Source: Bolinopsis microptera (Eukaryota > Ctenophora > Tentaculata > Lobata > Bolinopsidae). From it: 64,000 nucleotides of DNA. The stretch is from the NCBI RefSeq assembly GCF_026151205.1, contig NC_087084.1, forward strand, positions 4,147,538-4,211,537. The letters run 5' to 3'. Made by a program: the position numbers and the translations under genes. Position 1 is the stretch's first letter. Each line of letters begins with the position of its first letter. Positions 3,093 to 45,100 of this stretch are shown here, piece by piece. The notes below the pieces were generated by a model. It saw only the letters and a program-made list of their open reading frames with translations, made no database searches and was not told the origin of the DNA.

Positions 3093-5407
3093 TTATTTTC
3101 GCCTACTGCCATTCCATCGGCTGGATTTCTTGCAAACTGCACATCTACTCACATTAGCGAGCCTCTTTTTAGCATCAATAGTGGTGTCGTAGATGCTAGA
3201 GTTTGCGTTAGCACCGGGTACGTTGTCCGTGTTGTTGATGTCGTCTGCTCGCAGCCAATAATCGGAGAAGGCTGTGTTGTATGTGCAGTACCCGCGGCCT
3301 AAGAGTTGAGGGGGTTAACAGACGAAGAGGTTATATAAAGTGCAAATAAACAATTTGCAACAAAATGGAAATAACTTATAATACAAATAGCTAATAATTG
3401 TAACTCAATAAACGGTAACACAACCTGCTGTTGACGGATATAAAGACGACCTTTTGATTTGCCGTCAACGGAAATATCTCTTAATAAATTCATTAAAAAC
3501 ATATGTTATCACTCGAATGATTTAGGAGACCTACAACATGTTTCTACATAAACATAATGTTTGTGAATAATTTCTGGACCATCTTGATCTTCCTAGTTCG
3601 ATCTCAGAAGGAAATGTGGTTTCCCACGATAGATTATTTTCACATCGCACAGTCAAACACCTTTCATGTTGTTTGAAAGAGCGGTTATCTTTTAAAACTG
3701 GTCGAACAGAGAAAGATTTTATTTGCAACTTCGCAGAAATTAAGCTAATTTAACCCATAACTGTGCCGGCCCATAAAATTATTTGATTTTAAAATGAAAA
3801 TCAAATATTTGTTTTGACACAGTATATAATGGTCGTAAATCAACCTAAATTTAACAGTTCCTACACAACTAGCAGGAACCCGTCTAACTTTAAAGTGGTG
3901 TAAAGAGACGATATTTATTTATTTATTAAGCGATTTTGACACCACTTGGGGCTCCAAATTTCGTGAACTAAAGTTCTTATTCCTTGGCCAATTTTTTATT
4001 TTTTAATACTAGTCAAATAAAAACATTTGACCCAACCAAAAAAGTTTGAAGGGTATAATTATTATAGATATATATCTCTCACAGTTGTTGCAGAAAGTCG
4101 TGTTAAAGTTGATGTCGTGGACCGTAGTGTCAGTAAAATGGCAACAGACATATATATCGTCTCGCTTTATATACATATAATAATAAGATTATAAAGAAAG
4201 CTCATAACATTGTGTTTATTGTATATTCAAAGTAAAAAGGTATTATACTATATATTATATTATAGCAAGACTCACTGAGGCACTCAAGATAAGAAGGTGT
4301 CTGAAGTTCAGGTAGACAGGACCCGGGAGAGTTGGTTGGGATGCCTTGTCCCGCTCTACCTGTCTTCCCATCAGATGCTGGGTTCATTGCGTCTAAAATA
4401 GGGATCAGGTAGCTGTACCTGTTAAGATATTATATAAATTATTATCAAAGTTAGTAGTTAATTTAAATATAATATGATAGCAAAATGTGGTGCCGATTCG
4501 TTTTCTGTCTTCTGATCGTGACTATTTCTATAATTCAGTTCGAAAAGACTTTTCGGAAAAGTATCCTAACTCTATCTTAACACTGTTAAACAGTTCGATT
4601 ACTTGTTCAGCCCCAGTAGTGGTTCAGTCCCAGTACTAAGTCAGTACCAAGGACCTCCACGAGTACAGAAGACAAAAAGACATGGTCCTATATAGCTATC
4701 ATAACCAATTACCAAAACTTAAAACTTACCCCGCCCAGATTTCTTCGAATCCAATGGGACAGTTAGGTATATCTGTCGAGAAAGAGTGCACTGTTTGTAC
4801 AAGACTAGGTCCCATACAGACATTACAACGGCTGATATGCGCCTCAACCTGGTCCATCGTCGTTAGTCGTATCATTGGGTCTTCACTGGAGATATGATCG
4901 GGGTTAGGAAGAGAAAGAGAGAAGACGTTATCTTACATACGATTAACTTATAAAGAATTTCGGAAAATCTTAATTATTGGTTGAACCAAATGTGGATTTG
5001 ACATCGATTTGTAAATCAATCGCATGGGAAGTTATTGAACAAATTGTATGGGAAGGTAACCCCACAAGCTGCTAAAAGCGGTAGCGATTCACCCTACCTT
5101 ACTTCTGCTCCCATCCAAACACTCTTCTCAGTTCTGAAGTTGTGTCCACACTCACCACTCCTAAACACAATCCATATTACAATTCAATAAATAATTTTTA
5201 TCAAAATCAAACTTACACCTAATAACTGAACACCCAAGCGCCGTTAAGTAAAAGTTCAAAACTTCCACTGGATTAATAAACACAAATCTAAACTACCTGT
5301 CACAGGTGACGAATGGAGTGGGAAGGAATGTTTCCATGCAACTGCCCGCACTCCCCGGGTCTTGCAGCATGTTCACTCCGTTCTCAAATATCATTAAGAA
5401 ACTGTAC
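3093..5407 (-). other. Shared NC1 exon cassette of the collagen IV locus (five exons)
   Basis: Five small exons encode nearly all of the NC1 domain: 5407-5297 (GYSFLMIFENG..GSAGSC..TC), 5160-5098 (SGECGHNF..VWMGAEV), 4885-4730 (end of C4 repeat 1, HISRCNVC, and start of repeat 2, TVHSFSTDIPNCP), 4418-4276 (GYSYLIPIL..NSPGSC) and 3298-3093 (RGYCTYNTAFSDYWL..VSRCAVC, then a basic tail and TAA). The first acceptor accepts phase 2, which both upstream giant exons supply. In collagen IV the NC1 domain sets chain selection and trimer registration, so chains sharing this cassette would carry nearly identical selection signals. Confidence 0.85.
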
Positions 5408-8400
5408 CTGTAGAAAAAGTGGGATTTAGAGGAAGGAAATTCCGTTGGTGATTGCAACTTTACATTTTACAAGTTAGTCCTGTAACAGTATAATGAGGCT
5501 AGGGTAAATTTGAACGGCCAGTTGGTAGATCACCGACCGGCTATAAGCCGGCTACTAACCGGCTATAAGCCGGCTTATAGCCGGCTACAATTTTTATAGC
5601 CGGCTATAAGCCGGCTTATAGCCGGTTAGTAGCCGCTTACATTTGTTGTTGAGCGACGGCTATTAGCCGGTTATAAGCCTGCTATTAGCAGTTTTGGTAT
5701 TAAAAGTGGTTATAAGCCGGCTATAAGCCGGTTATAAGATATTAACTCAACTACATCGTACTGAACGATAGTCAGGAGCCGGCTATAAGAAATTCAGTTA
5801 CTAACCGGCTATAAGCCGGCTTATAGCCGGCTATAAAAATTGTAGCCGGCTATAAGCCGGTTTATAGCCGGCTTATAACCGGCTTATAGCCGGTCGGTGA
5901 TCTACCAATTTCCCATTTGAACAAAAATCAACAGAGTATACCTAAAATGAGCGAATGTTGGAGAATGAAGGGGGTGAAATGAGTGTATTAGCCAACTAAC
6001 CCAATCCACAAGGACTTCCACTTGTCAGGACACCTGGGTATATCAGTATTCTGACTGTGCATGACAAGAACATGTGTATCACAGCCACACTTCTTCTGAG
6101 CTCCTGCCGTCAGAGGGACATTGTTTGGGGTACATATTTGACTGCAGACTCCCGGTTCTCCGTTTTGTCCATCTTTTCCATGTTCACCAAGTATACCCTC
6201 TACACCAAGATCACCTTGAGCACCTTGATCACCTTCGTCTCCCCGATCACCTCTCACCCCTCGTTTCCCGTCAACACCTGTGGCTCCAGGGATTCCTAAA
6301 TCTCCTCTCATTCCAGGTTGTCCGAGCAGGCCCTCAAATCCTTCCAAGCCTGGTACTCCATCAGTTCCAGGTTCTCCATTCACTCCGGGAACACCGGGTA
6401 AAGCCACATCACCATAAAGACCTTTTGCTCCCTTGGCACCCATGGATCCTAGTTCTCCAGGTTGTCCCGGAGAAACAATCAGATCGTTAACATTTATAGT
6501 CTCCAGAACAAAATCAAATAAATCCCTATGTGCGCCTAAAGGATCCAGACCTTCGGAAGGATTGTAAATGTTTCTCACGGATAATGGTTTGCCTTTGTTG
6601 CCTTTGGTTCCTGGATCTCCCACCTCACCTTCTGCTCCATCCGCTCCTTCTTCACCGTAATTTCCATCCTCTCCACGCTCACCAGGTTCACCAATAGATC
6701 CTTTGTATCCGATTGGACCAACCCTTCCAACAGTTCCTTCAGCACCCTCTAATCCTGGTAGACCAGTTGAACCTTTGTTGCCCGGAAAACCTACATCACC
6801 AGGGATACCACTCACACCTGTGATGCCAATTAGTCCTTGCTGTCCCTTCTCACCATCAGCACCATTAACACCATCACGTCCTGACCTACCCACCGCTGAA
6901 TCACCCATCGCACCTTTGAAACCCTTATATGCTGGAAAACCCTTAATTCCTGGTAGCCCTGGCTGTCCGTCAAATCCAGTATTTCCTTTGTCACCAGTTG
7001 GCCCTCTGCGACCAGTTGAGCCGAAAAATCCTTGCTGTCCCTTCTTTCCGTCGGGTCCACGTCTTCCTCTTCTACCTTTGCCTCCTTTGGATCCAATTGG
7101 ACCTTTTGGGCCTTGGTCACCGACGTCACCGTCTTCACCTTTCGGCAGATCCGGATCTATCACCCAATTTTCATGAGGTTCTCCTTTAGGACCTCTCTTT
7201 CCCTGTAGGCCGGGCTCTCCTTGTTCTCCCTGATCACCCAAGGGCCCTTTACGTCCTTGGTCACCAATTGGTCCCCGAATTCCTTGTTGTCCCTGTCTTC
7301 CAGGCCGTCCAGGACAGCCGTCTAATCCAGCCAAACCTTTAATGCCAGAATTTCCGTTGAGACCTGGTAGACCTTTAGGCCCTACTGATCCTTTTCGTCC
7401 ATCTGGCCCAGGAATTCCTCCTTCTGCTGGGATGCCCGCATTCCCAGGCGTACCCTTAACTCCTGGTGTACCAGGTAAACCATCCGCACCATCCGCACCA
7501 TCCATTCCATCTAACCCACGCGGACCACGTCCCCCAAAATGACCTTTGTCACCATCCTTACCTTTATCACCTGGTGTACCAACTGCATCAGGACCAGGCT
7601 GTCCGGTATCACCGTGTTCACCAGGTCTACCCTTTTCTCCTTTGAAACCCTGCAGACCTGATGTTCCATTGACACCATTGGCTCCTGCAACCCCGACAAA
7701 ACCTTGAGGACCGTTCACCCCTTCATCCCCATTCTCTCCTTTCAATCCAATGACGCCCTGAATACCAGTTTCTCCTGCAGGTCCTTTATTGCCATCTAAA
7801 CCTTTGGGACCAGGAACTCCTTTCAAACCTGTTATGCCAGCAATACCAGCCGATCCTTTTTGACCTTCTGCTCCATCTTTCCCATCAAGTCCAGAGACAC
7901 CAGTCAGTCCAACCTTTCCAACTTTTCCTTCTCTGCCAAGTACTCCAGGTACGCCAACAATTCCCCTCGGTCCAAGTGCTCCATGCTCGCCGTCTGCTCC
8001 CATTCTACCGACGTATCCCTTGATACCAACTATGCCTTGTGGGCCGGGCTCACCAGGTTCACCTTTGTTATTGCTGATACCTTTAAGTCCTCTGTTACCT
8101 TTCAATCCTCGGTATCCTGGTCTTCCTCTGACACCCGTTCTTCCTTGTTTTCCTTTCTCACCTGGAACATTTGGTGCAGGCTCTCCCTTTTCTCCCTTTG
8201 GACCTTCAACACCTTTTATTAACGATTGAATGTCGATATCATCGGGATTTCCCTGGCGACCAGGGGCACCTCGAGTACCTTTTGAACCAAGTTGACCTTT
8301 ACGACCAGGTACACCGTTACTGCCATTTTCTCCGAAAGCACCAACTAGACCTGGTCTACCATGAAAGCCGTTTAAACCAGCTTGGCCGGGAATTCCTGGA

Positions 8401-11102
8401 ACACCATATTCTCCACGCGGACCACGCTCACCCTTTTGACCCTGATTACCATCAGCTCCTTTGTCTCCAATTTCGCCAACTACCCCCTTATTACCATGGG
8501 TTCCTGATTTTCCGGGTCGGCCAGGAATGCCGTTGGTGCCATCGGGAGCAGCTTCGCCGGTAAAACCAGTTGTTCCTTTTTGTCCTTTGCTTCCTTGATC
8601 ACCAGCGATACCAAAATGTCCATGTTTTCCCTTTTGCCCAGGTATCCCGTTTATTCCTGGTAATCCTATCAAGCCGTGGTGTCCTCGACTTCCTTTTAAC
8701 CCCTCTGCTCCATCATCACCATCATCACCGGTAACACCTTTGTCACCCTTTTGACCAATTTTACCACTCTGTCCTGGGAGTCCGTTCGTGCCTGGCACGC
8801 CAGGAAGACCAAACTCTCCCTGCCTCCCAACTTCTCCTTCACCCCCAGTTTCTCCCTTGATACCCTCAGCTCCACGTCTTCCTTTTGATGCTGTAGCTCC
8901 TTTGCTTCCTTGGACACCCTTGGAGCCCCGTAAACCCTTTCTCCCTGACATTCCACGAACTCCCGCATATCCGTCTACTCCCTCGTAACCCTTGGTTCCT
9001 GGCTTACCTTTTTCACCGACTGGGCCGATATCTCCATCTTGTCCTTCTGCTCCATCTGTTCCAGGTTTTCCAGGCTTACCCGGTGTACCAGGTGTGCCGG
9101 GAATTCCGTTGGAACCCCTCGCTCCACGTTTACCGTTTATTCCAGGGGTACCGACTTCGCCTCTTTCTGCTGGAACACCAGGCAAACCTGGGAGTCCAAA
9201 CATACCTTTGTTACCCGTGAATCCTTTTAAGCCTGTTATACCGTGTGTTCCATGAAGAGAATGCAGTGCATGTGGTCCAACCGATCCGTCTTTACCATCG
9301 GCACCTAAAGATCCTGGATGACCTTTCTGTCCATTATCTCCATCATAACCAGGAATCCCAGGTACTGCATCGTCTCCTGGAATTCCTTTTCCACCTGTTA
9401 GTCCAGTGGAACCTTGCTCCCCTTGTGGACCTGGTGGACCACGCCACCCTTCTTTTCCTTTAGGACCCGGGTCTCCAGGAATTCCAAGCCTTCCAAAGCT
9501 ACCTTTTGGTGAAGGCAGAGTGGCTCCTTTAACACCACGATCACCAATAACGCCACGATTTCCTCGGAAACCCTTGTCTCCTTGTTCACCTTGAGGGCCA
9601 ACCGTAGCATTTCCTTTGCTTCCAAAATCTCCCGTAATACCTTTCACTCCTTGCCAACCTTTGATTCCTGGTAGCCCTTGAGGTCCCCGTCTGCCGTGAA
9701 AACCGCCTATGCCAACTCGTCCAGGTCCTCCCATCTCTCCATTTTCCCCCATCTCTCCGACCACTCCTTCCACACCCTTTGACCCATCAATTCCGTCTAG
9801 AGCATCTAAACCGTCGATTCCTGGTTCACCTTTGAAACCCTTATTGCCACCTTGTCCAGTACGGCCCTTAAATCCTTCATATCCAGTGTCACCCTTTTCG
9901 CCTTGATCTCCTTGTTCTCTTAAAGGTATTACTTCTTCCCCTGGATCTCCTTTGTTTCCTCTGAGTCCGTTCATACCTGGCATACCATGAATACCTGGTC
10001 GACCAGGGATTCCATGGGGTCCGGGAATCCCGGGAAGACCTTTTTCTCCTTCAAGGCCTGTAACACCACCGTCACCTTTCTCTCCAATAGGACCTTTGGG
10101 ACCATCACCTCCTTTCATGCCTTTTCTTCCGATAATCCCGATCACACCACCATCTCCTAGAGCACCAGTACTCCCTTTTTCTCCATGTATACCTTTCGAT
10201 CCTTCTTGACCAGGGAATCCAATCTGGCCCCAGTGTCCTTTGCGCCCTTTTGAGCCATCAACTCCTTTAGTTCCTTTCGGGCCTCTCGTAAATTCTCCCT
10301 GAACTCCTTTTTCTCCTTTATATCCGACTGCACCATCTGCTCCATCCGCTCCATTCATACCATTCAGTCCGTCTTCTGCTGTGTTTCCTTTATAACCCTT
10401 CACACCTTTTACGCCATCAGGACCGATTTTTCCCATCATGCCTTTCTCTCCGTCTATTCCCCAAAATCCCATTGGCCCCCTCCTACCTTTATCACCAGGT
10501 ATACCATTATCACCGGTCAGGCCAGTGTCTCCTTTAATTCCAGTTCGTCCTATATGTCCTTCTACACCCTTAATTCCTTTCAGTACTATACCGATAGAAC
10601 CCCTGTCTCCCTTGAATCCAAGTTTTCCTGCTAGACCGTCAATTCCTGAAGTTCCAGTAACGCCTGGTGCACCTGTCTCTCCTTTCAGTCCATTTTCTGC
10701 ATTTGTTCCATTTACTCCGTTTATTCCCCTTAAGCCATGCATGCCCGGCAGAGCATCTCTACCAGTATGCCCTGACACGCCAGGACTGCCTGGCTGTCCT
10801 TGATATCCCTGATCTCCCCTCCCTCCTAAGTCACCAGGTAAACCAGGGGGTCCTTGTTCTCCTTCTGGACCCAGAGCTCCATCACGGCCAGGTAAACCAT
10901 TAACACCAGTTTGGCCGATTTTTCCTATCACTCCCACTAGACCGGGTAGACCTGTATCTCCTCTGACAAACTTTACAGGCTCACTACAGCAAACAATTGC
11001 GGTGTCATTCTTTGAGTTAACAACCCCTAGTCTGTTCCTCCGTGCAGGGTCCGGATCAGATTCTGCAGACACGAACGAGATAATGAGGAAGCCGAGGATC
11101 AT
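3093..11102 (-). CDS. Collagen IV alpha chain, proximal form (6 coding exons, 1,926 aa)
   Basis: Basement-membrane collagen IV chain: secreted, forms trimers and networks through 7S and NC1 ends. Model: 11102-6001, 5407-5297, 5160-5098, 4885-4730, 4418-4276, 3298-3093. All junctions are GT..AG, phases match and the total is 5,781 nt. Residues 1-13 form a signal peptide (MILGFLIISFVSA). A CC pair near residue 37 opens a 7S-like region, followed by about 1,600 residues of interrupted Gly-X-Y with the GCPGRPG motif and two non-helical segments (WVIDPDLPKGE, and a block of about 40 residues starting near SVRNIYNP). Tandem C4/NC1 subdomains start at CGCDTHVLVMHSQ and keep all 12 NC1 cysteines, with HISRCNVC closing the first half and VSRCAVC the second. 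RGD occurs in VRGDRGDEG. The whole helix sits in one exon, which is unusual. The five short NC1 exons appear to be shared with the distal unit upstream. Family call is firm; exon joins are inferred. Confidence 0.9.
5522..5908. mobile_element. Foldback (long-TIR) element in a collagen IV intron
   Basis: Left arm 5522-5631 and right arm 5799-5908 are near-perfect inverted copies of about 110 bp, beginning TTGGTAGATCACCGACCGG on each strand. Each arm is built of smaller palindromic units (ccggctataagccgg, ccggcttatagccgg), so arms and whole element can form hairpins. The 167-bp centre holds further diverged ccggctataag units and no ORF. The shape suits a non-autonomous foldback/MITE element. It lies in the intron between the proximal giant exon and the first shared NC1 exon. 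I could not define a target-site duplication. Confidence 0.7.
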
Positions 11103-11290
11103 TGTCGATTGTATGTCTCACATCATCTTTTCTCTACACGATAAGGGCATGTCACTATACATTGAGAAATTTAGTAAATTTTTGGATACGTTGAAAAGTC
11201 CACGGCACCAACCTAAGGCTCAAAAATCGAATGAATGATTGTGGGATGATGGGATGGAAAATATGAAAATAAAAATAGTTCGAAACTTAC
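11103..11290 (-). promoter_or_regulatory. 188-bp gap between the collagen IV giant exons (inferred proximal 5' UTR/promoter)
   Basis: The distal exon's donor GTAAGT is at 11290-11285 and the proximal ATG at 11102. Nothing else coding fits between. If the proximal chain has its own transcript, its core promoter and 5' UTR must lie here or inside the distal exon. No clear TATA box is seen. One AG preceded by T-rich sequence (ccttag, near 11215) could serve as acceptor, but joining the distal exon to it runs into an in-frame TAG before the proximal ATG, so it would not fuse the two chains. Confidence 0.4.
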
Positions 11291-14200
11291 CCAACCCAGA
11301 GTGATTTCCAATGCTGAGGACATTGAGGTATGTCAGTTGTCTGGCTGTGCATGGTAATAACGTGGGTATCACAATGACACCCCTTCTTCTCACGGGGACC
11401 CGTTCCAGAACAGCTTTCAGTACACTGACCAGCCTCCCCCACATCACCATCTCTCCCAAATTTACCAATAAAACCAATGATACCTGCGTCCCCTTTCGCA
11501 CCATTGTCACCAACATCTCCTCTGTTGCCTCTAAAACCATTCCTTCCGGAAGGTCCTCTGTTGCCAGCTAATCCCACGTCTCCAGGAGATCCCTGAATTC
11601 CCGGCATACCATGAATACCAGGAGTACCAGGAATACCGACCACTCCACTTTTTCCATCGGAACCATCAGCCCCAGGAATCCCTGAGTCTCCATCATCTCC
11701 GAATCCACCTCTATTCCCAGTAGTTCCAGTTTCCCCGGGTTTACCTAGTAAAGAAGGGTGGTCCAAGGCCCTGATATCTTCAACGAGCATATCAACAACT
11801 TTTCTTCCAATCAAGTCCATTCCCTTGATTCCTGTTTTGGGGTCGTAATGATCAGAAATGAGAAAATCTCTACCTTGATCACCTTTGAGCCCGGGTGTTC
11901 CAGTTGAACCCTGGTCACCCCTTGTCCCTGGGAATCCTCTGAAACCCTGAGAACCTTCGAAGCCTTGTTTTCCCTTGTTTCCAGTTTCTCCCTTATTCCC
12001 TTGTTTTCCTATTGGACCTAACGCACCTCTTAAACCCCGACTACCAGGGAAACCTATTTCACCTTCATCACCATCTTTACCAAATTGTCCCTTTGGTCCG
12101 ATAGCACCACGGCCTCCCCTGCCACCACGTCTACCATTCCTCCCTCTCATCCCTGGATTCCCTGGATCTCCCACCACGTTATCACCTGGATGTCCTTTAA
12201 AACCGGGATGTCCGGGGTACCCTTTTACTCCGGGTCCTCCAGCAGTACCCGTATTTCCCACGTCCCCTTCTTCGCCAGCAATTCCTCTAATACCCTGCAT
12301 ACCAAGCTGTCCTTGAGATCCTTTCTTTCCTCTTTCTCCAGACCTTCCTGTCTTCCCCTTATCTCCTTTCGGTCCTGGGTAACCAGTTTCACCGGGATCA
12401 CCAACGTCACCTGCTTCACCCTTAGGGAGATCAGGGTTGATCACATAATCGGGATGTGGCTCTCCTTTTGGTCCTATTTTACCTGGACGTCCTACTTCTC
12501 CCCTGTCTCCCCTATCGCCCGGGAGACCTTTAATACCTGTGTAACCGACAGGACCTCGAGAGCCTTGCTGTCCTAAGTTTCCAGGACGTCCAGGGCACCC
12601 CTCCATTCCAGGAGTTCCCTGGTCTCCATCTTCACCAGGGGTTCCAGGTGCACCTTTGAGGCCGATCACACCTTTAAAACCACCCTCACCGACCGCTCCC
12701 TTTTGACCAGGATCTCCAGGGTTTCCAGTACGACCTGTTCTTCCTCTCATTCCAGGATAACCTGGAGGACCAAGTGAACCAGTAGAACCTGGAACTCCTT
12801 CTGCTCCATCTTCTCCTACTAAGCCTGGCAATCCGGCTGGACCCTTATCACCTGGCGGACCAGGTATTGTTTCACCTTGTACACCAATATCTCCAGGATA
12901 ACCTTTGATTCCTTGTCGTCCCTTTTGTCCAAGTGGACCTCTCAATCCTTTAGGGCCTCGTTTTCCATATTGCCCAACATAACCTTTAATTCCTTTTTCG
13001 CCAGGATACCCTTTTCGTCTTTGCACACCCTTGTTACCAACATCTCCTCTGGGACCTCTTTTGCCTTTTGGACTAGGATTTCCCTTTGGTCCAAGGTATC
13101 CTTGTTTTCCTGGAGGACCAACTTCCCCATCTTCTCCTTTTTGTCCATCAGCACCCACTGCTCCTGCACGTCCTTCAATTCCAGCATCTCCAATTCTGCC
13201 TTTTTTTCCTAGTCTCCCTTGCTCGCCTTTCTCTCCAGGCCATCCTCTAAATCCAGGAAGCCCAGGGAAACCATCATCACCAAGACGTCCAATATACCCT
13301 TTAACTCCTTGAGGGCCTGGCTCTCCCCTCTTTGCATTATCACCTGGCGCACCAACTGGACCAACACCTCCTGGAAGGCCTTTCATTCCTTTGCGTCCAA
13401 CAAAACCAGCCCACCCGTTTCGACCCATAGAACCTTTATCACCCTTGATTTCTGTGCCATCAATACCACGTGTCCCTTTCCTTCCCTCGTTTCCTGGTTC
13501 TCCTTCAGGTCCGACGTCACCACGTCGCCCAAAGAAACCACCAAAGCCCGTGGATCCAGGTTTCCCATCAATTCCATTTATTCCGAGATGACCAGGTATT
13601 CCAGTTATACCAGGCCTACCGTGGTCCCCGTTTTTTCCAGGGCTTCCATGCTGACCTGGGGGTCCGTGCCGACCAAGTTTACCCTTTATTCCTGGTGTAC
13701 CTTTCAATCCTTTCAAACCGCTTTCTCCATAAATACCAAGCAGTCCATCTAGCCCGTTCGAACCATCAACTCCAGGTAATCCAGGAATACCATTACTTCC
13801 ATGCACACCAGGGTCACCTTTTTGTCCGATAAAGCCAACAATTCCAATAAGTCCTTCATCACCAGGCAACCCAGCTGGTCCTTTTTTCCCTTTTGAACCC
13901 TGATAACCATCGATTCCTTTGAAACCACGATTTCCCGGTATTCCTGGTAAGCCAGATGGTCCCTGAATGCCATCATCTCCAACATCTCCTTTAACTCCTT
14001 TGATACCATCATGACCGTCCACACCATTTGTCCCATGAATGCCGTCTTGTCCCGGAATGCCATGAACCCCAGTTTTTCCAGGTAGTCCAGTGTCTCCAGG
14101 AGCCCCAAGAGGACCCTTATTACCAGGGTCTCCTATCTCTCCAACGTTACCGGGAAGCCCTACAGCACCCAAACCACCTTGAATACCTGGCTCACCTTTC

Positions 14201-16518
14201 TTCCCGGTCCAACCCGGCATACCCATAAACCCTTCAAGGCCTAGTTCACCTTTTTGTCCTTTATGTCCTCTAATACCCATTATACCAACATCTCCTTGTT
14301 TTCCTCTCCTTCCATCTACTCCTGGACCACCACCAATCGCGGAGAAACCTGGAATACCGTGTCTGCCAAATGTACCGTCATACCCATACAAGCCGTAAGT
14401 TCCCTTGCTTCCCTTTTCTCCTGTATCTCCATTCTCACCTATTACCCCATCAGTTCCTTGTGCGCCCTTTCCTCCCTTATCTCCAACTTCTCCCTCCGGT
14501 CCAGGAACTCCAGGAAACCCATGATATCCAGGATCACCATCTCTTCCCGCTTTACCGTGTCTGCCTTCAGGACCAAACATTCCTTTTTTACCTCTTTTCG
14601 CTCGCTTTCCTCGTTTTCCTGGTTTGCCATTATCCCCCTCTTCTCCTTTTCCTCCTTTCAATCCTTTTGCCCCCAAAAACCCTTTGACTCCTTCGAGTCC
14701 CTTCTCTCCATCAATACCCTTAGGTCCCACTGGTCCTCGTCTCCCAACAAGTCCAAACTCTCCTTTTCTACCGTAGATGTCTGCACCCTTAGGTCCAATA
14801 TCACCTATTTCTCCTTCCTGTCCTTTTAAACCTTTTTGACCATCTCGACCTTGATCACCTACGGTCGAAGGACCTTGTTCACCTGTGGGTCCTTGGGATC
14901 CAACTTGACCTTTGTAACCCTTTACACCAGGAAAACCTTGAGATCCTTTTGGCCCAAGATCTCCAACGTCTCCTTTTGGTCCTTGATCTCCATCAGTTCC
15001 TTGTTCACCAACAAATCCCTTTACTCCTTTCAGACCTTTTTCGCCTTTTATTCCAGGAATACCATCGTCACCATGAAACCCTGGACGACCTGGCTCACCC
15101 TTATCCGCGTAGTCTCCAGGAAAACCTGTAACTCCTTTGTGACCTGTGGAGCCGGTGAAACCTTTATCACCAGGATTTTTGCTGATAAGGTCTTCAGGAG
15201 GATTTACGCCCAGCTCACCCTTTTGCCCGACAGCACCTTCCGGACCGTGCTTTCCTGGTACTCCATTTAAACCAGGTAATCCTTGACTACCCAGAAAACC
15301 TTTTCGACCTGTTTCTCCCGGTACTCCGACAACCCCTTGATCTCCTTTGAGACCAATCTCCCCTTTCAAACCAATATACCCCTTTTCTCCGATTTCTCCG
15401 ATGGCTCCAGTGATTCCTTGATCGCCCTTAAGACCCTGTTGGCCCTTGACACCTAACCCGCCAAGTCGACCTTTAAGTCCATCTATTCCTTTCAGTCCTT
15501 CTTCGCCTTTGATTCCCTCTTCACCCTTCAAACCCTTTAAACCTTTTGGGCCAACAGTGATAGTTCCTTGCCAACCTTTTCTACCCTTTTCACCCAAGTC
15601 ACCAGTTCTTCCGTCAACCCCATCAGCGCCATCAGGTGCGGTAGGACCAGTATCACCTTTTTGGCCCTTCGCTCCTTCCAATCCGGTAAACCCTATTCGG
15701 CCAATCCTTCCTTTGCTACCCTGTACTCCGGGTAGACCAAATGCACCGTCAAAACCATCAGGAGCGTGCTGTCCGACTACTCCTTTTTGTCCCTTTAGTC
15801 CTTTGCTTCCTAACTCTCCAAATGGAGGCGCAGGAAGTCCTTTGATTCCTTTTATGACAATGCCCGTTGTTCCACGATCTCCGTTTTGACCTAAATCTCC
15901 TTTAGCGCCATCAAATCCAAGGTGTCCCTTGACCCCCTGTTCCCCGGTTGCTCCTTGATCTCCTTTTTCACCGTCCGTACCATTAGTAGCATCAATACCG
16001 TTCAATCCATTCATTGCATCAATACCAATTCTCCCATCTTTACCAGGTTCTCCTCGAACACCAGGTAGTCCAGGATCACCCTTGACACCTCGCAGTCCAA
16101 AAGCACCAGGGAGACCAATGCCACCTTTATCTCCAATTTGACCTTGTATTCCTCTTCTTCCTGGCAAACCTTGAGGTCCAGGATCCCCGGCTAATCCAGT
16201 ATCTCCTGGTTTTCCGGTTCGACCTTGTCTTCCTCGGTTGATTTTAACAGGGTTACTGCAGCAGGCTGGATCTGGTTCATCAGTTGCAGACTCAAACTGG
16301 CCGAGGAAATCAGGATCTCTAACATTCACCTGAACAGACTCGTAATCATCGAATTGAGCGAATTGGAGACTAGAACTTTTCCGAGATTTTTTGGTCGACT
16401 TCTTATTCACTCTCTTTCCTCCTCCTCCTCCCTTCTTTTTGTTCTGTTTCTGTTGAAAAGTAGTATTGATGAGCGCAATCAGGAATAGCAGATACAGAAG
16501 TCTCATCTTTGAAACCAC
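11291..16518 (-). CDS. Collagen IV alpha chain, distal giant exon (own signal peptide, helix and NC1 start)
   Basis: One exon encodes about 1,742 residues of a second collagen IV chain. It has a signal peptide ([18 protein letters not shown], with an ATG four codons upstream), then a 60-residue basic/acidic linker rich in Lys and Gly that the proximal chain lacks. A CC pair in [13 protein letters not shown] parallels DPDPARR..CC in the proximal chain. The helix is of about the same length, with [18 protein letters not shown] and a long interruption near [12 protein letters not shown] at matching places. It ends [13 protein letters not shown]...SLWVG, the first strand of NC1, at donor GG|GTAAGT (11291/11290, phase 2). 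No NC1 continuation exists in the next 188 bp. Joining 11291 to 5407 keeps frame and gives 5,907 nt, 1,968 aa. Alternatives are a truncated duplicate or trans-splicing. The two helices differ strongly in sequence, so the duplication is old. Confidence 0.85.
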
Positions 16519-26500: not shown

Positions 26501-26819
26501 ATAACAGAATTGAAATTAATAATAATGTTTTAAGTTGCGAAACTAGGCCACGCCGGCCTGATGCCGATTTAAACCGATTACCTTGCTCATTAGTACATAA
26601 GTATCCCACTTATAGACTTACCTTGGATTAAATTAATAAATTAAAAACATTTAAATGATTGGCTTTCATTCTTGTAAAATGTATCCAAAGCTCCTCCTCC
26701 ACACCCGGAAAAGTTAACGTGAAAACTGCGGCGCCCTTGTTAAATACTATGTGGTACCAGCCAGTGTGCTATTTTCAGGTTATACTTGTTAACTCGTCTT
26801 CTATTTTAGTTTCTGAAGC

Positions 26820-29800
26820 ATGAAGACTCATTTGTGGAACCCGTACTGGCACGGTTACCACAAGATAAGGGGAGGCACCACGTGTGGTTCTGGCACCAAC
26901 CCTTCAACACTGGGAACTTCTGGGAAATACCTTCAGCAAAACTCCACCTGCTATGCTAGTTCTGCAAACAGGTGTAATTCAAATGACGTTCAGGAAAATC
27001 AGCAGCCTAGCAATAATCAGATTCGTACGCTAATGGAAGATCCTTTAGATAAACCAAAACTGATCCCAAAGAAACTAAAAGTTAAATTCCCGATATCTGT
27101 CAAAAAACCAGCCACTTTACCCAGAAAGATAACTATCTCAACTCGAAGGCGTGTGGATTCATTAAATTCGTCGTCTGAACGTATTTCAAATTGTAAGCTA
27201 AGAGCAAGATATGACTGTTGTAAGCACAACATATGTAAAGGTAGACCCGGAGGTCTACCCTCTAGAAGATACATGTCTTCAACTAAGTCATCCAGAGCAA
27301 AAGAGATAAAAGATAGACGGAAAAAAGAGAAATCCGCTATCTACGTACCTCTGCAGTTAGATACAATGGAAGTAGCTAGGTGTGAAGATCGACACGACCT
27401 CGAGGTAGATTCAACGAAGAGTATTTTACCTGCAGACCCTGCAACCAGCAGTCGGCAGTCGTTTGAGCAGTCTTCACACATACTCTCTAAGTTTCAAAAT
27501 GCTGGCCCATCTAGCTTCACTCCAAAGAATAAACGGAGAGAAGTCGGCGGGAAATACCACCAGTCTAACTTGCAACATACAAATCTTAGCCGGGGTAAAA
27601 ATAAGCAGCAAAAGAGAGTCAGAATCTCTGAAACGGTCTGTTATTCAAAGGAAAAGGAGAGTCACGAGTTTAGCGACAGTGTTCTGCAAGTACCAGGCGT
27701 GGGTATCGCTCAAAATAGTATGTTCTCGCACATAAGTGGTTATTTTAGCTCCTATAACGAGCAGAAAGAGAACTCCAAATTGAATCCCTCGTATCCTATC
27801 CTCGGTCGGGAAATGATAAGAAAGTTGAGCACACATTTGTTGGAGGCGACCAATTCATTAAAAAATACAGGGGATGTTGTTAGAGTTTCGGACCCCACGG
27901 CTAACCAAATTAATGATTTGTTAGGACCGAATTTAGGAATTGTTAGGTCTATCTCTAACTCTAGTGACTTAGAAAATCAAAAGGAAACTTGGTTTAAAAC
28001 TAACAACATCGCATGCTCAGAGAGGAGAACCAGAACTGAATATTATTTAAAAGATAAAGTCTCTTACCTAGGCTCCAAGAATCACGAAACTCAAATAGTT
28101 GTTCAGCCGATAAATGAAGCATACCTCACGGACAAGTCCGCATCATCAGAATCTTTGGACATATCAAGAGTTTCTGATCGGCTGGTAACTGGTGCTGTGA
28201 TCGAGCTGCAATCAGTTGGTAGATCTTCACTGCAGCAAACTGATAAATCCCATTCCTTACAACAACCATCATCTCCAACAACAAACTCATTCAACCAACC
28301 ATCATCTCCAACAGCAAACTCATTCAACCAACCATCATCTCCAACAGCAAACTCATTCAACCAACCATCATCTCCAACAGCAAACTCATTCAACCAACAA
28401 TCATTTCCAGGATGTCACTCCTCCCAACAGAAACCATTTTTAATATCACACTCCGTCAACCAATCATCATCTCCAACAACACACTCCATCAGCCAATCAT
28501 CATATCCAACAACACACTCCATCAGCCAATCATCATCTCCAACAACACACTCCATCAGCCAATCATCATCTCCAACAACACACTCCTTCAGCCAACCATC
28601 ATCTACAAAACTGAGTTCTCCAGAGTCATCAGATGGCTATGACGACACTTCCTCTACCAATGCAAACTGTGATATATCATCCAAAAGAGGGAGATTAAAG
28701 ATAAAAGATCTTGCGGAGAGTATTGAAAGCTTGGCGGAGGTTGGTTTGCAACACATTTACATTTCATCAATCTAAAAGTTTGTTTTACTTTCTCAGATAT
28801 GCTGGTAGTATAATTGCATTTCGCTCTTTATGATTAATATTAGGGTCATATAAAGCAATTCATTCACGTTTGCGCGTATCATTTAGAATCTGGAGTATAA
28901 TTTTAGCAGGTACATCGTACATCAAGGGGACCATCACGAAACTGCAGTACAAGATTTCCTTCTGAAAGCAGGTTTGAAATGAATATCGTAAAGTGATACG
29001 TATCATAAAATATGTTCTGGTTGATGATGAGGACCCCTAAAAATATTTGCTCTTCACAGTTTAAAAGATGAAGATTCTGGAGAAAGAAAATCATCACCTG
29101 GGATCAGCAGTTCCAGTTCCCCGACAGTAACTTCTGAACCTATGTCATCAATAAGTGGGGTAATACAATTTGAGTAATATTTCAACTTCATGGATAATTT
29201 AACAAAAATAAGCCATAGCGCAAGTCCTCCTCGCCAGTCGCACAATTGCAATTTCCCATATTTGAAACTACAAGTTTTTTATAGCATGAGTTGATAGTGA
29301 ACTCTTCAGGATGAGAGATACAGCACTCCCCTCCTCGACGAGAAAGAGGTATCTTTACCAGCCAGCCAATCAGCCGTATACACAGAGTCACGTGTCAACA
29401 CGATCACGTTACCTCATCAGCCTACAGAACAGGATCCTACAGCTCCTTTGCATCATGATTCAGAAGACGTGCATAAAACAAAGGACAGTTTTTCATATAA
29501 GCAGAAAAAGTCCTTCGTTGGTCCGTACTGCTCAGAATGCATTCTTCCATCCGGAAAAACTATAAAAAGCCACTCTCCGAGTAGCACAGTGAGCAGACCA
29601 CGGTGGAACTCAAACCAAAACCATACTTCCCCCAATAGATCACGGTGGAATTCTAACCAAACATGTTCTAGTGCCAAATTACAGTTGGAGAAGGGAGATA
29701 TCATGGTGAATGATAAAACCAGTATTTTATGCTCTGAAAACAGTCAGCCTCACTGTAACTCCAGTACAATTGGCTTATCTCATCCACATATTTCGTGGGA

Positions 29801-30536
29801 TTATTATATCTTAGCTCAACAACAAGATGATGTGAACAATTTGCTATCAAGTCAGCTTTCTGGAAACCTATCAACACACCTATCAGCCTCAGAGAAGTCA
29901 CAAGGTACCTTGCCTCAAAATGAGGAAGTGACGAAATATTCCCAATCTCAAGAAAGCAGGCTGCTAAGTAAACATAATTGGAAAGTGTTGGTAACACAAG
30001 ATTTGCCGTATTACAGATCAACCAGCAAAACAGTTAATTCAGCAAATGATCTCTCTATCTCGACTGGCGATGTTTTTCCTTGCAAATGCAATCACTACAT
30101 GACTGATGGTGATTTTGAACGACACACAATCAAAAACGTGGGCGGAACCAAAAACTTAAAAACTCTGAAGCAATATTCGAGATTAAAGTCAGTTAACCGT
30201 TCTGCACGTAGGTCGTTTTTAAAAGAAACGAAAGCGTCAGCAGACAGACGAATCAGTTTTAAACAGCCGAAATACCTCACCTCCAAGGATAATCTTAATG
30301 TTGTTACAGTACCGATACAATTACATTATCTAGAGCTCCTTGATCATCGAACTAGGAATTCTGAACTTAATGATCATGAATGTCAGAAAAGCAGACAAGG
30401 TACTTTCTCTTTTAATAAATCCGATCAGCTCAATTCGAAGGATATAGATAATCCTTGGGTTGTAGTTTTTGCTCGGTTTAACGAAAAAGACAAACAATTG
30501 GTATACGAAGCAATTTTGAGTTTGATGAATAAATAA
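26820..30536 (+). CDS. Unrecognised 1,102-aa Ser/Lys-rich protein, 4 coding exons
   Basis: I do not recognise this protein. Model: 26820-28739, 28910-28971, 29060-29159, 29310-30536 (3,309 nt, all GT..AG, phases 0, 2, 0). The joins are supported because each small exon is open only in the frame its neighbours require. The product is hydrophilic, without signal peptide or membrane segment. It has basic patches (KPKLIPKKLKVKFPISVKK around residue 80) and a Ser-Pro-Thr repeat tract near residues 480-595. The C-terminus is better conserved-looking (NPWVVVFARFNEKDKQLVYE). Two segments resemble each other: VPLQLDTMEVAR, about residue 180, and VPIQLHYLELLDH, about residue 1030; each follows an Arg/Lys-rich stretch. 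The start is uncertain: an upstream acceptor (attttag, about 26812) opens a second frame of about 48 codons across the first 150 bases. AATAAA follows the stop. Confidence 0.7.
28255..28606 (+). repeat. 33-bp coding minisatellite (11-residue repeats)
   Basis: Inside exon 1 of the unrecognised gene, a 33-bp unit encodes NQPSSPTANSF (four copies) and then, after a short spacer, QSSSPTTHSIS (five copies). The two blocks are related and each is internally homogenised, indicating recent in-frame expansion. Ser-Pro/Thr spacing suggests a phosphorylatable disordered linker; that function is inferred. Confidence 0.85.
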
Positions 30537-39000: not shown

Positions 39001-41680
39001 GTTCTGTTCCACTAGCAGTCGGGGGAGGGGAGCTACTTACTTGGGATCTTGAGGCTTGAACCCGGAGTTCTGTTCCACTAGCAGTCGGGGGGAGGGGAGC
39101 TACTTACTTGGGATCTTGAGGCTTGAACCGGAGTTCTGTTCCACTAGCAGTCGGGGGAGGGAGCTACTTACTTGGGATCTTGAGGCTTGAACCCGGAGTT
39201 CTGTTCCACTAGCAGTCGGGGGGAGGGAGCTACTTACTTGGGATCTTGAGGCTTGAACCCGGAGTTCTGTTCCACTAGCAGTCGGGGGAGCGGAGCTACT
39301 TACTTGGGATCTTGAGGCTTGAACCCGGAGTTCTGTTCCACTAGCAGTCGGGGGAGGGGAGCTACTTACTTGGGATCTTGAGGCTTGAACCCGGAGTTCT
39401 GTTCCACTAGCAGTCGGGGGAGGGGAGCTACTTACTTGGGATCTTGAGGCTTGAACCCGGAGTTCTGTTCCACTAGCAGTCGGGGGAGGGGAGCTACTTA
39501 CTTGGGATCTTGAGGCTTGAACCCGGAGTTCTGTTCCACTAGCAGTCGGGGGAGGGGAGCTACTTACTTGGGATCTTGAGGCTTGAACCCGGAGTTCTGT
39601 TCCACTAGCAGTCGGGGGAGGGGAGCTACTTACTTGGGATCTTGAGGCTTGAACCCGGAGTTCTGTTCCACTAGCAGTCGGGGGAGGGGAGCTACTTACT
39701 TGGGATCTTGAGGCTTGAACCCGGAGTTCTGTTCCACTAGCAGTCGGGGGAGGGGAGCTACTTACTTGGGATCTTGAGGCTTGAACCCGGAGTTCTGTTC
39801 CACTAGCAGTCGGGGGAGGGGAGCTACTTACTTGGGATCTTGAGGCTTGAACCCGGAGTTCTGTTCCACTAGCAGTCGGGGGAGGGGAGCTACTTACTTG
39901 GGATCTTGAGGCTTGAACCCGGAGTTCTGTTCCACTAGCAGTCGGGGGAGGGGAGCTACTTACTTGGGATCTTGAGGCTTGAACCCGGAGTTCTGTTCCA
40001 CTAGCAGTCGGGGGAGGGGAGCTACTTACTTGGGATCTTGAGGCTTGAACCCGGAGTTCTGTTCCACTAGCAGTCGGGGGAGGGGAGCTACTTACTTGGG
40101 ATCTTGAGGCTTGAACCCGGAGTTCTGTTCCACTAGCAGTCGGGGGAGGGGAGCTACTTACTTGGGATCTTGAGGCTTGAACCCGGAGTTCTGTTCCACT
40201 AGCAGTCGGGGGAGGGGAGCTACTTACTTGGGATCTTGAGGCTTGAACCCGGAGTTCTGTTCCACTAGCAGTCGGGGGAGGGGAGCTACTTACTTGGGAT
40301 CTTGAGGCTTGAACCCGGAGTTCTGTTCCACTAGCAGTCGGGGGAGGGGAGCTACTTACTTGGGATCTTGAGGCTTGAACCCGGAGTTCTGTTCCACTAG
40401 CAGTCGGGGGAGGGGAGCTACTTACTTGGGATCTTGAGGCTTGAACCCGGAGTTCTGTTCCACTAGCAGTCGGGGGAGGGGAGCTACTTACTTGGGATCT
40501 TGAGGCTTGAACCCGGAGTTCTGTTCCACTAGCAGTCGGGGGAGGGGAGCTACTTACTTGGGATCTTGAGGCTTGAACCCGGAGTTCTGTTCCACTAGCA
40601 GTCGGGGGGGGGAGCTACTTACTTGGGATCTTGAGGCTTGAACCCGGAGTTCTGTTCCACTAGCAGTCGGGGGAGCGGAGCTACTTACTTGGGATCTTGA
40701 GGCTTGAACCCGGAGTTCTGTTCCACTAGCAGTCGGGGGAGGGGAGCTACTTACTTGGGATCTTGAGGCTTGAACCCGGAGTTCTGTTCCACTAGCAGTC
40801 GGGGGAGGGGAGCTACTTACTTGGGATCTTGAGGCTTGAACCCGGAGTTCTGTTCCACTAGCAGTCGGGGGAGCGGAGCTACTTACTTGGGATCTTGAGG
40901 CTTGAACCCGGAGTTCTGTTCCACTAGCAGTCGGGGGAGGGGAGCTACTTACTTGGGATCTTGAGGCTTGAACCCGGAGTTCTGTTCCACTAGCAGTCGG
41001 GGGAGGGGAGCTACTTACTTGGGATCTTGAGGCTTGAACCCGGAGTTCTGTTCCACTAGCAGTCGGGGGAGGGGAGCTACTTACTTGGGATCTTGAGGCT
41101 TGAACCCGGAGTTCTGTTCCACTAGCAGTCGGGGGAGGGGAGCTACTTACTTGGGATCTTGAGGCTTGAACCCGGAGTTCTGTTCCACTAGCAGTCGGGG
41201 GAGGGGAGCTACTTACTTGGGATCTTGAGGCTTGAACCCGGAGTTCTGTTCCACTAGCAGTCGGGGGAGGGGAGCTACTTACTTGGGATCTTGAGGCTTG
41301 AACCCGGAGTTCTGTTCCACTAGCAGTCGGGGGAGGGGAGCTACTTACTTGGGATCTTGAGGCTTGAACCCGGAGTTCTGTTCCACTAGCAGTCGGGGGA
41401 GGGGAGCTACTTACTTGGGATCTTGAGGCTTGAACCCGGAGTTCTGTTCCACTAGCAGTCGGGGGAGCGGAGCTACTTACTTGGGATCTTGAGGCTTGAA
41501 CCCGGAGTTCTGTTCCACTAGCAGTCGGGGGAGGGGAGCTACTTACTTGGGATCTTGAGGCTTGAACCCGGAGTTCTGTTCCACTAGCAGTCGGGGGAGG
41601 GGAGCTACTTACTTGGGATCTTGAGGCTTGAACCCGGAGTTCTGTTCCACTAGCAGTCGGGGGAGGGGAGCTACTTTGGA
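31027..41680. repeat. 66-bp satellite array, about 10.6 kb
   Basis: Head-to-tail 66-bp unit, with recognisable core ttgggatcttgaggcttgaa followed by cccggagttctgttccacta and gcagtcgggggaggggagct. Units at 39.3-40.6 kb are almost identical; about 160 copies would fit. The main variation is gcgg/gggg after the G run. Two stretches (about 31027-33365 and 35005-37090) are the same unit with inflated G, T, A and C homopolymers and lost bases, which looks like failed consensus. Because 66 is divisible by three, the minus strand stays open for hundreds of codons (22-residue repeat); I regard that as a by-product. On the minus strand each unit has a pyrimidine tract plus CTAG acceptor-like site, 37 nt, then an AA|GTAAGTA donor-like site. 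The array lies between two converging genes, just beyond the ANKAR-like poly(A) signal. Confidence 0.9.
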
Positions 41681-42186
41681 GTAAGGACGGCTCAGTCCCA
41701 GTCTCGTTATATCTTCGTATTTCACTGTATCTACCTTCTGTAACGGTATACATGTTTATTTAAAATTGGGATATTCCAAAATCAACTGTATAAAATCTTA
41801 GGTTACCAAAAGGTTTCTGGCGAAGTAATTGTTTTTCCGGTTTCTTAATTAATTGATATGATGATTATTAAGAAAGCTTCAAACCGAAAGCATTTTGTCT
41901 CCAGGGACGGGTGTCTTAGATCCCTCCCTCATTCCCTTGTTCGGGGATGTTGAACCTGATGACGTCATCACGATACTCTTAGACCTTGAGATATCTGAAA
42001 TATTGCTATTTTAATTTACGTTATAAACAAATGAATTTAATGGTCCAATAATAATATAGTGCTGTTATCACATGTTTTTAATTACAAAAAAGGAAATATC
42101 ATTTTGCTCATCACTTTTTTCCAAAAAATGTTATCAAATTTGACAAAACCGTTACCAATTTTCAAACCCTAACCCACATTTACAAA
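41681..42186 (-). other. Inferred 3' UTR and flank of the ANKAR-like gene
   Basis: Unique sequence between the two satellites. It follows the TGA at 42189-42187 and includes the AATAAA at 41760-41755. A palindromic TGATGACGTCATCA near 41959 contains a CRE-like TGACGTCA. No other coding sequence is seen. Confidence 0.45.
41755..41760 (-). terminator. Poly(A) signal for the ANKAR-like gene
   Basis: Plus TTTATT reads AATAAA on the minus strand, about 430 nt after the stop codon at 42187 and about 75 bp before the satellite begins. It would place the transcript end just outside the 66-bp array. Confidence 0.5.
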
Positions 42187-45100
42187 TCAGAACGAAGACC
42201 ACAAACAACCACACAAACCTGGAAGTTTGGTACTCTTTTCAGGGTTAGTCTTACTGAGAACCCTTCTCCTGTGTTCCCTGATAGAATTACCCTGCACAGC
42301 GGACACCAGAGCGTCTGAAACAGGCACATTAGGACTGAGTCGGGTCACTTCCTCCAAGAGGGCAACGTCCTCGTGGGTTTCAACCAGTAGCTGGCTTACT
42401 CCTGACTGTTGGAATAGGTTATTAGTGTGGGTTTCAACCAGTAGCTGCTTACTCCTGACTGTTGGAATATGTTATTAGTGTGGGTCTCAACCAGTAGCTG
42501 GCTTACTCCTGACTGTGGGAATAGGTATTAGTGTGGGTCTCAATCAGTAGCTGACTTACTCCTGACTGTTGGAATAGGTTATTAGTGTGGGTCTCAACCA
42601 GTAGCTGGCTTACTCCTGACTGTTGGAATAGGTTATTAGTGGTGGGTCTCAACCAGTAGCTGGCCTTACTCCTGACTGTTGGGATAGGTTATTAGTATGG
42701 GTCTCAACCAGTAGCTAGCTTACTCCTGACTGTTGGAATAGGTTATTAGTGTGGGTTTCAACCAGTAGCTGGCTTACTCCTGACTGTTGGAATAGGTTAT
42801 TAGTGTGGGTCTCAACCTGTAGCTGGCTTACTCCTGACTGTGGGATAGGTTATTATAGTGTGGGTCTCAACCAGTAGTTGGCCTTACTCCTGACTGTTGG
42901 TATAGGTTATTAGTGTGGGTCTCAACCCAGTAGCTGGCTTACTCCTGACTGTTGGAATAGGTTATTAGTGTGGGTCTCAACCAGTAGCTGGCTTACTCCT
43001 GACTGTTGGATAGGTTATTAGTATGGGTCTCAAGCAGTAGCTGGCTTACTCCTGACTGTTGGAATAGGTTATTAGTATGGGTCTCAACCAGTAGCTGGCT
43101 TACTCCTGACTGTTGGAATAGGTTATTAGTGTGGGTCTCAATCAGTAGCTGGCTTACTCCTGACTGTTGGAATAGGTTATTAGTGTGGGTCTCAACCAGT
43201 AGCTGGCTTACTCCTGACTGTTGGGATAGGTTATTAGTGTGGGTACTCAACCAGTAGCTGGCTTACTCCTGACTGTTGGAATAGGTTTTATAGTGTGGGT
43301 CTCAACCAGTAGCTGGCTTACTCCTGACTGTTGGGATAGGTTATTAGTGTGGGGTCTCAACCAGTAGCTGGCTTACTCTGACTGTTGGAATAGGTTATTC
43401 TAGTGTGGGTCTCAACCAGTAGCTGGCTTACTCCTGACTGTTGGGATAGGTATTATAGTGTGGATTCAACCAGTAGTTGGCTTACTCCTGACTGTTGGAA
43501 TAGGTTATTAGTGTGGGTCTCAACCAGTAGCTGGCTTACTCCTGACTGTTGGAATAGGTGATTAATGTGGGTCTCAACCAGTAGCTGGCTTACTCCTGAC
43601 TGTTGGAATAGGTTATTAGTGTGGGTCTCAACCAGTAGCTGGCTTACTCCTGACTGTTGCGATAGGTTATTAGTGTGGGTCTCAACCAGTAGCTGGCTTA
43701 CTCCTGGACTGTTGGAATAGGTTATTAGTGTGGGTCTCAACCAGTTAGCTGGCTTACTCCTGACTGTTGGGATAGGTTATTAGTATGGGTCTCAACCAGT
43801 AGCTGGCTTACTCTGACTGTTGGAATAGGTTATTAGTGTGGGTCCTCAACCAGTAGCTGGCTTACTCCTGACTGTTGGGATAGGTTATTAGTATGGGTCT
43901 CAATCAGTAGCTGGCTTACTCCTGACTGTTGGAATAGGTTATTAGTGTGGGTCTCAAACAGTAGCTGGCTTACTCCTGACTGTTGGAATAGGTTATTAGT
44001 GTGGTCTCAACCAGTAGCTGGCTTACTCCTGACTGTTGGAATAGGTTATTAGTGTGGGTCTCAACCAGTAGCTGCTTACTCCTGACTGTTGGAATAGGTT
44101 CTTAGTGTGGGTCTCAACCAGTAGATGGCTTACTCCTGACTGTTGGGATAGGTTATTAGTATGGGTCTCAATCAGTAGCTGGCTTACTCCTGACTGTTGG
44201 AATAGGTTATTAGTGTGGGTCTCAACCAGTAGCTGGCTTACTCCTGACTGTTGGGATAGGTTATTAGTATGGGTCTCAATCAGTAGCTGGCTTACTCCTG
44301 ACTGTTGGAATAGGTTATTAGTGTGGGTCTCAACCAGTAGCTGGCTTACTCCTGACTGTTGGGATAGGTTATTATAGTGTGGGTCTCAACCAGTAGCTGA
44401 CTTACTCCTGACTGTTGGAATAGGTTATTAGTGTGGGTCTCAACCAGTAGCTGGCTTACTCCTGACTGTTGGAATAGGGTATTAGTGTGGGTCTCAACCA
44501 GTAGCTGGCTTACTCCTGACTGTTGGGATAGGTTATTAGTATGGGTTTCAACCAGTAGCTGGCTTACTTCTGACTGTTGGAATAGGTGATTAATGTGGGT
44601 CTCAACCAGTAGCTGGCTTACTCCTGACTGTTGGAATAGGTTATTAGTGTGGGTCTCAACCAGTAGCTGGCTTACTCCTGACTGTTGGAATAGGTTATTA
44701 GTGTGGGTCTCAACCAGTAGCTGGCTTACTCCTGACTGTTGGAATAGGTTATTAGTGTGGGTCTCAACCAGTAGCTGGCTTACTCCTGACTGTTGGAATA
44801 GGTTATTAGTGTGGGTCTCAACCAGTAGCTGGCTTACTCCTGACTGTTGGAATAGGTTATTAGTGTGGGTCTCAACCAGTAGCTGGCTTACTCCTGACTG
44901 TTGGAATAGGTTATAGTGTGGGTCTCAACCAGTAGCTGGCTAACTCCTGACTGTTGGAATAGGTTATTAGTGTGGGTCTCAATCAGTAGCTGGCTTACTC
45001 CTGACTGTTGGGATAGGTTATTAGTGTGGGTCTCAACCAGTAGCTGGCTTACTCCTGACTGTTGGAATAGGTTATTATAGTGTGGGTCTCAACCAGTAGC

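Follow-up and report, generated by a model that had tools for sequence, protein, structure and literature searches.

Two giant first coding exons and one set of NC1 exons: a probable variable-first-exon collagen IV gene in the ctenophore Bolinopsis microptera

Collagen IV chains are described as the products of separate genes, often arranged in head-to-head pairs (PMC12141075), and their NC1 domain as the recognition module that governs how they assemble (PMC5395295). A 64,000-nucleotide stretch of the genome of the ctenophore Bolinopsis microptera (C13:4147538-4211537, contig NC_087084.1; hereafter the window, whose own positions are used below) raises the question of whether two such chains can be made from one locus with a single NC1, as it carries two giant exons for collagen IV bodies and, behind them, only one set of NC1 exons. 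On the basis of the genomic sequence, we propose that this locus is probably a single collagen IV gene of ctenophore Group II, in which two giant first coding exons serve as alternatives in front of a constant set of NC1 exons. An earlier note on this DNA had arrived at the same idea and set it against bilaterian collagen IV genes, which are the wrong yardstick for a ctenophore.

Both bodies lie head-to-tail on the minus strand, and not in the divergent orientation of a head-to-head COL4 pair. The distal giant first coding exon (11291..16506, with its ATG at 16506) and the proximal one (6001..11102, with its ATG at 11102), both delimited by open reading frame and translation, follow the same plan: a start codon and a signal-like N-terminus (signal peptides were judged by eye), a Cys-Cys 7S-like start, an interrupted Gly-X-Y helix, an NC2 domain of 40 (distal) or 39 residues (proximal), a Cys-rich loop and, at the 3' end, the start of the first C4 repeat. 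From stop to stop, the open frames measure 1746 codons (distal) and 1709 codons (proximal). Their coding parts, 1,738 and 1,700 codons, are free of stops where base composition predicts ~104 and ~97, so that these frames are not a product of chance. Open frames and translations agree with the earlier description of two giant minus-strand collagen IV exons, each with signal peptide, Cys-Cys start and full helix. The 188 bp between them (11103..11290, minus strand) begin the distal intron with GTAAGT and at the same time form the 5' flank of the proximal exon. Downstream of the latter, intron 1 (5408..6000), which also makes up the last part of the 5,883-nt intron predicted for the distal exon, leads to five minus-strand NC1 exons defined by splice sites and frame: exon 2 (5297..5407), exon 3 (5098..5160), exon 4 (4730..4885), exon 5 (4276..4418) and exon 6 (3093..3298), which contains the stop codon and is followed by poly(A)-like signals at 2866, 2813 and 2624. 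The single NC1 set and the 188-bp spacing that had been pointed out before are thus borne out, and neither the gap nor any other part of the window contains an N. Intron 1 also holds, at ~5513-5917, a palindromic element of ~400 bp with 119-nt arms that are 92% complementary and CCGGCTATAAGCCGG-like units. The terminal 20-mer of this element has 83 + 82 copies in the genome at no more than one mismatch (0 + 0 for the reversed control), often as facing pairs among the matches listed, in the manner of a miniature inverted-repeat transposable element family.

How well does each giant exon fit the common set? The distal donor (TGG/GTAAGT, intron from 11290) and the proximal donor (TGG/GTTAGT, intron from 6000) both cut the Gly codon of SLW-(V/I)-G in phase 2, that is, at the identical NC1 residue, in keeping with what the earlier note had stated for residue, donors and phase. 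Of the two, the distal GTAAGT is the better match to the U1 donor consensus. By frames and phases, the constant exon set can be joined by either giant exon: the distal exon and the five NC1 exons add up to 5,895 nt and 1,964 aa, the proximal exon and the same five to 5,781 nt and 1,926 aa, each in frame and with a single terminal stop. The previously calculated 5,781 nt stands, while 5,907 nt has to be corrected to 5,895 nt, since the distal ATG is at 16506 and not at 16518. The resulting C4 domain (PF01413, in two stretches) scores 178.2 bits in the distal join and 176.2 bits in the proximal one.

The 3' end of the distal exon behaves as part of an NC1 domain. Taken alone, this stub matches the C4 profile with 33.1 bits over positions 2-25. 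The G+C content at third codon positions (GC3) of the last 35 codons is 0.486 in both giant exons, compared with 0.28-0.29 in their helices. A step in codon use of this kind, from a helix GC3 of 0.24-0.29 to an NC1 GC3 of 0.44-0.61, is seen in the window gene and in all eight paralogous loci measured (L012-L017, L019 and L020), for which the NC1 values are rough because the codons were taken from tblastn pieces. In the NC1 fold, the first Cys of C4 pairs with a Cys from later exons, so that folding of the distal stub would depend on the shared exons.

The two bodies are, by their alignment, old sister sequences. They are 45% identical over 1,647 aligned positions, or 22.5% without the shared glycines, and each is the other's best relative in the genome, with 162 bits each way and ~70 bits for the next match (222-aa C-terminal query). 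At four-fold third positions, a fraction of 0.376 is identical compared with 0.343 expected without relation (n = 558), and synonymous sites are therefore close to saturated. Their layouts have nonetheless stayed closely matched: the span from CCS to CDTHV measures 1,630 versus 1,636 residues, with eight Cys apiece in corresponding order, and, counting runs of at least three triplets, there are 494 Gly-X-Y triplets with 19 interruptions in the distal body and 492 with 24 in the proximal one. With Cys pairs at residues 82-83 (distal) and 38-39 (proximal), a long interrupted helix and two C-terminal C4 repeats, the hallmarks of collagen IV are present. Both NC2 lengths fall within the 38-44 residues of the Group II definition (PMC5395295); the Cys loop next to NC1 has four Cys per chain, spread across 18 (distal) and 22 residues (proximal), where the definition gives 3-4 Cys in 11-13 residues. 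Given this long divergence and the intact frames, both bodies must long have been under selection.

Does the distal exon have an NC1 of its own elsewhere? Genome searches gave 48 matches to C4, all on C1, C10, C12 and C13 and none on an unplaced contig, and 40 matches to NC1 (278-aa query, short of two residues), which we grouped into ~17 loci. No second NC1 is among these matches, either close to the distal exon or at lower C13 positions, towards which transcription runs, although weak matches can escape such searches; within these limits, the additional copy that the earlier note had allowed for did not turn up. A search with the distal NC2 alone matched only itself, and missed even the proximal NC2. 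Eight of the other collagen IV loci were compared (those named above; L018 was taken as the 3' end of L017) and one more (L021) in part, with 5' ends that may be cut in several. All eight have a helix in many pieces, one 3' NC1 region and 633-1,571 helix codons, so that each NC1 set is accompanied by a single helix at most; other collagen IV loci also occur in same-strand tandem, each having its own NC1. In L012 (C13:11416623-11417324), the whole NC1 lies in one 413-codon frame, with the helix again in many pieces. The window's two frames are the only ones of more than 1,000 codons among the matches listed (150 of 452 candidates scored), and the giant-exon arrangement is likely unique in this genome. 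Furthermore, SLW-x-G is without an intron in all six paralogous loci in which the site could be read (L013, L015, L016 and L019 read directly, L012 and L017 by unbroken alignment), so that both donors probably descend from one ancestral intron and the giant exon would have been duplicated after this intron arose. The sequence fits a duplication of the giant exon by itself as well as one of the complete gene in which the distal NC1 was subsequently lost.

In its anatomy, the locus thus resembles a variable-first-exon gene. Each giant exon would supply a whole body, from signal peptide, 7S start and helix to NC2, Cys-rich loop and the start of NC1, and either would be spliced in equal phase to the common five NC1 exons. 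We infer that the splice from 11291 to 5407 is made, in which case the distal transcript would remove the complete proximal exon within the 5,883-nt intron. Passing over the proximal exon should be easy if that exon never serves as anything but a first exon, because it then lacks a 3' splice site that is used in the distal transcript. The use of one NC1 by both bodies, which the earlier note had put forward, is the best-supported explanation, as the distal body is intact, its stub fits C4 equally well and no second NC1 was found nearby or downstream; it holds as a probable reading of the locus.

The sequence fits several ways of choosing the 5' end, with the separate 5' ends of the earlier note as one candidate. 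Two promoters are possible, as is one promoter combined with spliced-leader trans-splicing or with mutually exclusive splicing, and promoters of their own would be the simplest means of choosing between the exons. In Hormiphora, at least 56% of Iso-Seq reads carry a spliced leader (PMC8527503), and a 16-base pattern made from the end of this leader and GT served as a probe. It has four exact matches in the genome, all at C13:12.81-12.89 Mb, and at one mismatch 30 + 14 matches compared with 4 + 7 for the reversed control. Clustered spliced-leader RNA-like genes (L009, L010 and L011; C13:12.81-12.83 Mb) lie on the window's chromosome, with a leader that ends in AATTTGAG before GT. In the three such loci that were read, visual comparison shows a likeness to the Hormiphora leader in the upstream bases too, and a second copy is present in one of them. 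Within the window, three exact patterns found no copy of the leader. Trans-splicing in the gap is possible; that it occurs just upstream of the proximal exon and competes with cis-splicing of the distal one, so that NC1 chain selection would be bypassed and trimers could contain any mixture of bodies, is a tentative and rather unlikely extension.

Several points weigh against a shared NC1. The distal donor lies just 78-157 nt upstream of three better AGs in the gap that are open to the proximal transcript. These are of middling quality, with 9-10 pyrimidines in 15 compared with 8-13 in the five NC1 acceptors, and cis-splicing of the distal donor to any AG of the gap would give a chain without NC1. 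A TATA-like promoter signal was not found in the gap. Moreover, the published Bolinopsis assembly was made with wtdbg from PacBio reads, followed by gap closing and haplotig purging (PMC10232365), and a local deletion is therefore possible if the window's assembly is the published one. Lastly, the Mnemiopsis genes of Group II, which stand alone or form a tandem array of one orientation, are reported to be full-length (PMC5395295), and if two of them are orthologues of the bodies described here, the shared NC1 would be either derived or an error. A fusion of the distal and proximal bodies through the gap was also considered and rejected: joined to any of the eight AG dinucleotides in the gap, the distal frame meets a stop within 25 codons, and no fused double helix can result.

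Among the rival explanations, the one that survives best, although we consider it improbable, is that a recent deletion removed the NC1 exons that once belonged to the distal gene, which would now be either dead or the source of an NC1-less chain ending at the donor TAA. The mere 188 bp between the bodies would fit such a loss, as would the tandem collagen IV loci with an NC1 each and the fact that reading through the distal donor adds one extra Gly before a stop (the TAA within the donor, GG/G TAA). However, the 5.2-kb frame is intact, as are the stub and the donor, so that only a very recent loss would fit, and since the distal donor has a ready downstream acceptor, it should be spliced to the common NC1 even after a deletion. 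The gap also lacks a canonical poly(A) signal (AATAAA or ATTAAA), which is a weak argument, as only 26% of shuffles contain one.

Somewhat less probable still is an assembly error that left out a distal NC1 set located between 11291 and 11102. The assembly procedure described above, if it was the one used here, would leave room for this, but the window is free of N, all C4 matches are on the four placed sequences named, and if tandem genes with similar NC1s had been collapsed as a repeat, the proximal giant exon would be missing as well. A loss of the NC1 alone needs a flanking repeat, and the gap has no clear similarity to the start of the proximal intron (score reached by 106 of 500 shuffles) and a borderline one to the distal 5' flank (35 of 500). 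These shuffles likewise give no support to an origin of the gap by duplication of the intron or the 5' flank, for which blastn gave short matches only.

A further possibility, compatible with two alternative first exons on one NC1 set but very unlikely, is that either giant exon also skips to exon 5 (4418), which would give a half-NC1 chain. Introns 1 and 4 break the two C4 repeats at a homologous position and phase (W-x-GG/G-Y-S, with intron 4 splitting EIWAG), and the skip keeps the frame for the distal and the proximal exon alike; yet only half of the NC1 would remain, and the correspondence may merely reflect the internal duplication of C4. Finally, an operon-like pair, in which the product of the distal unit is short and terminates within the gap and the NC1 is used only by a trans-spliced proximal unit, could draw on the spliced-leader-like genes of this genome and the frequent leader of Hormiphora reads, but is hardly credible, as a collagen IV chain without NC1 lacks the recognition module for assembly and the distal stub keeps an NC1 sequence and codon use that would be useless to such a product.

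Elsewhere in the window, there are tandem repeat arrays with long open frames (39100-41759, 44346-44924, 46729-47364, 50416-51102 and 52391-54345), whose units read SSPPPTASGTELRVQASRSQV and NNLFQQSGVSQLLVETHT and of which some are open on both strands, as well as two long plus-strand open frames, 26817-28775 (652 codons) and 29301-30536 (411 codons), both measured from stop to stop.

How does the proposed gene compare with known systems? Neither a shared NC1 nor alternative whole-body first exons in collagen IV appear in any title or abstract start among the matches listed, with most subscription papers, bioRxiv preprints and supplementary files outside the scope of the search; within it, the earlier note, which knew of no description of a shared NC1, is borne out. 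The alternative exons of C. elegans let-2 are a short cassette. In the clustered protocadherins, variable exons, each with its own promoter, are spliced to common constant exons (PMC7811963). Like protocadherin alpha/gamma and UGT1/GCNT2 (PMC7811963, PMC1885805), the locus has large paralogous first exons in tandem and, behind them, one set of small constant exons, with a variable N-terminal and a constant C-terminal part. Unlike in these families, there are only two variable exons, the product is an extracellular matrix chain and the constant part is an extracellular assembly domain; furthermore, the clade has spliced-leader trans-splicing, and a promoter of its own for each giant exon is a candidate feature only. 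Head-to-head COL4A1/2 pairs (PMC12141075) also place two collagen IV chains at one locus, but there the promoter region is shared, whereas here the bodies are head-to-tail and share their 3' exons. Alternative trans-splicing of C. elegans sma-9 (PMC2904332) likewise yields different mRNAs from one locus and illustrates how the proximal exon might be selected; it gives shorter, non-overlapping transcripts, whereas here nearly the whole chain would be swapped.

The closest comparison in taxonomic terms is Mnemiopsis, for which Fidler and colleagues describe 11 full-length collagen IV genes, seven of them Group II genes that stand singly or in a same-strand tandem array; the number of exons in a gene ranges from 6 to 33, and the largest exon has 4,867 bp (PMC5395295). 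This exon size and count would fit one giant exon and five NC1 exons. The window gene has in common with Mnemiopsis Group II an NC2 of ~40 aa, a domain said to be restricted to ctenophores, a Cys-rich extension before NC1 and, for some, the same-strand tandem order; it differs in that those are reported as separate full-length genes, with no shared NC1 mentioned in the gene descriptions of that report (PMC5395295). Another candidate counterpart of the Mnemiopsis array is the group of tandem genes at C13:11.39-11.42 Mb.

If both joins are made, the two chains could mix freely in one trimer, because their assembly domains would be almost identical and their helices of equal length, and variation between them would be confined to the 7S and helix surfaces. 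Assembly identity would then be separated from chain identity, with two diverged, length-matched bodies on one NC1, in a lineage supported as the sister to all other animals (PMC10232365). Such a gene would be a natural experiment on whether the NC1 by itself determines which chains mix. It would also extend the variable-first-exon gene beyond the vertebrate families named in the papers cited here, and trans-splicing, if it is involved, would be an unusual way to choose a first exon.

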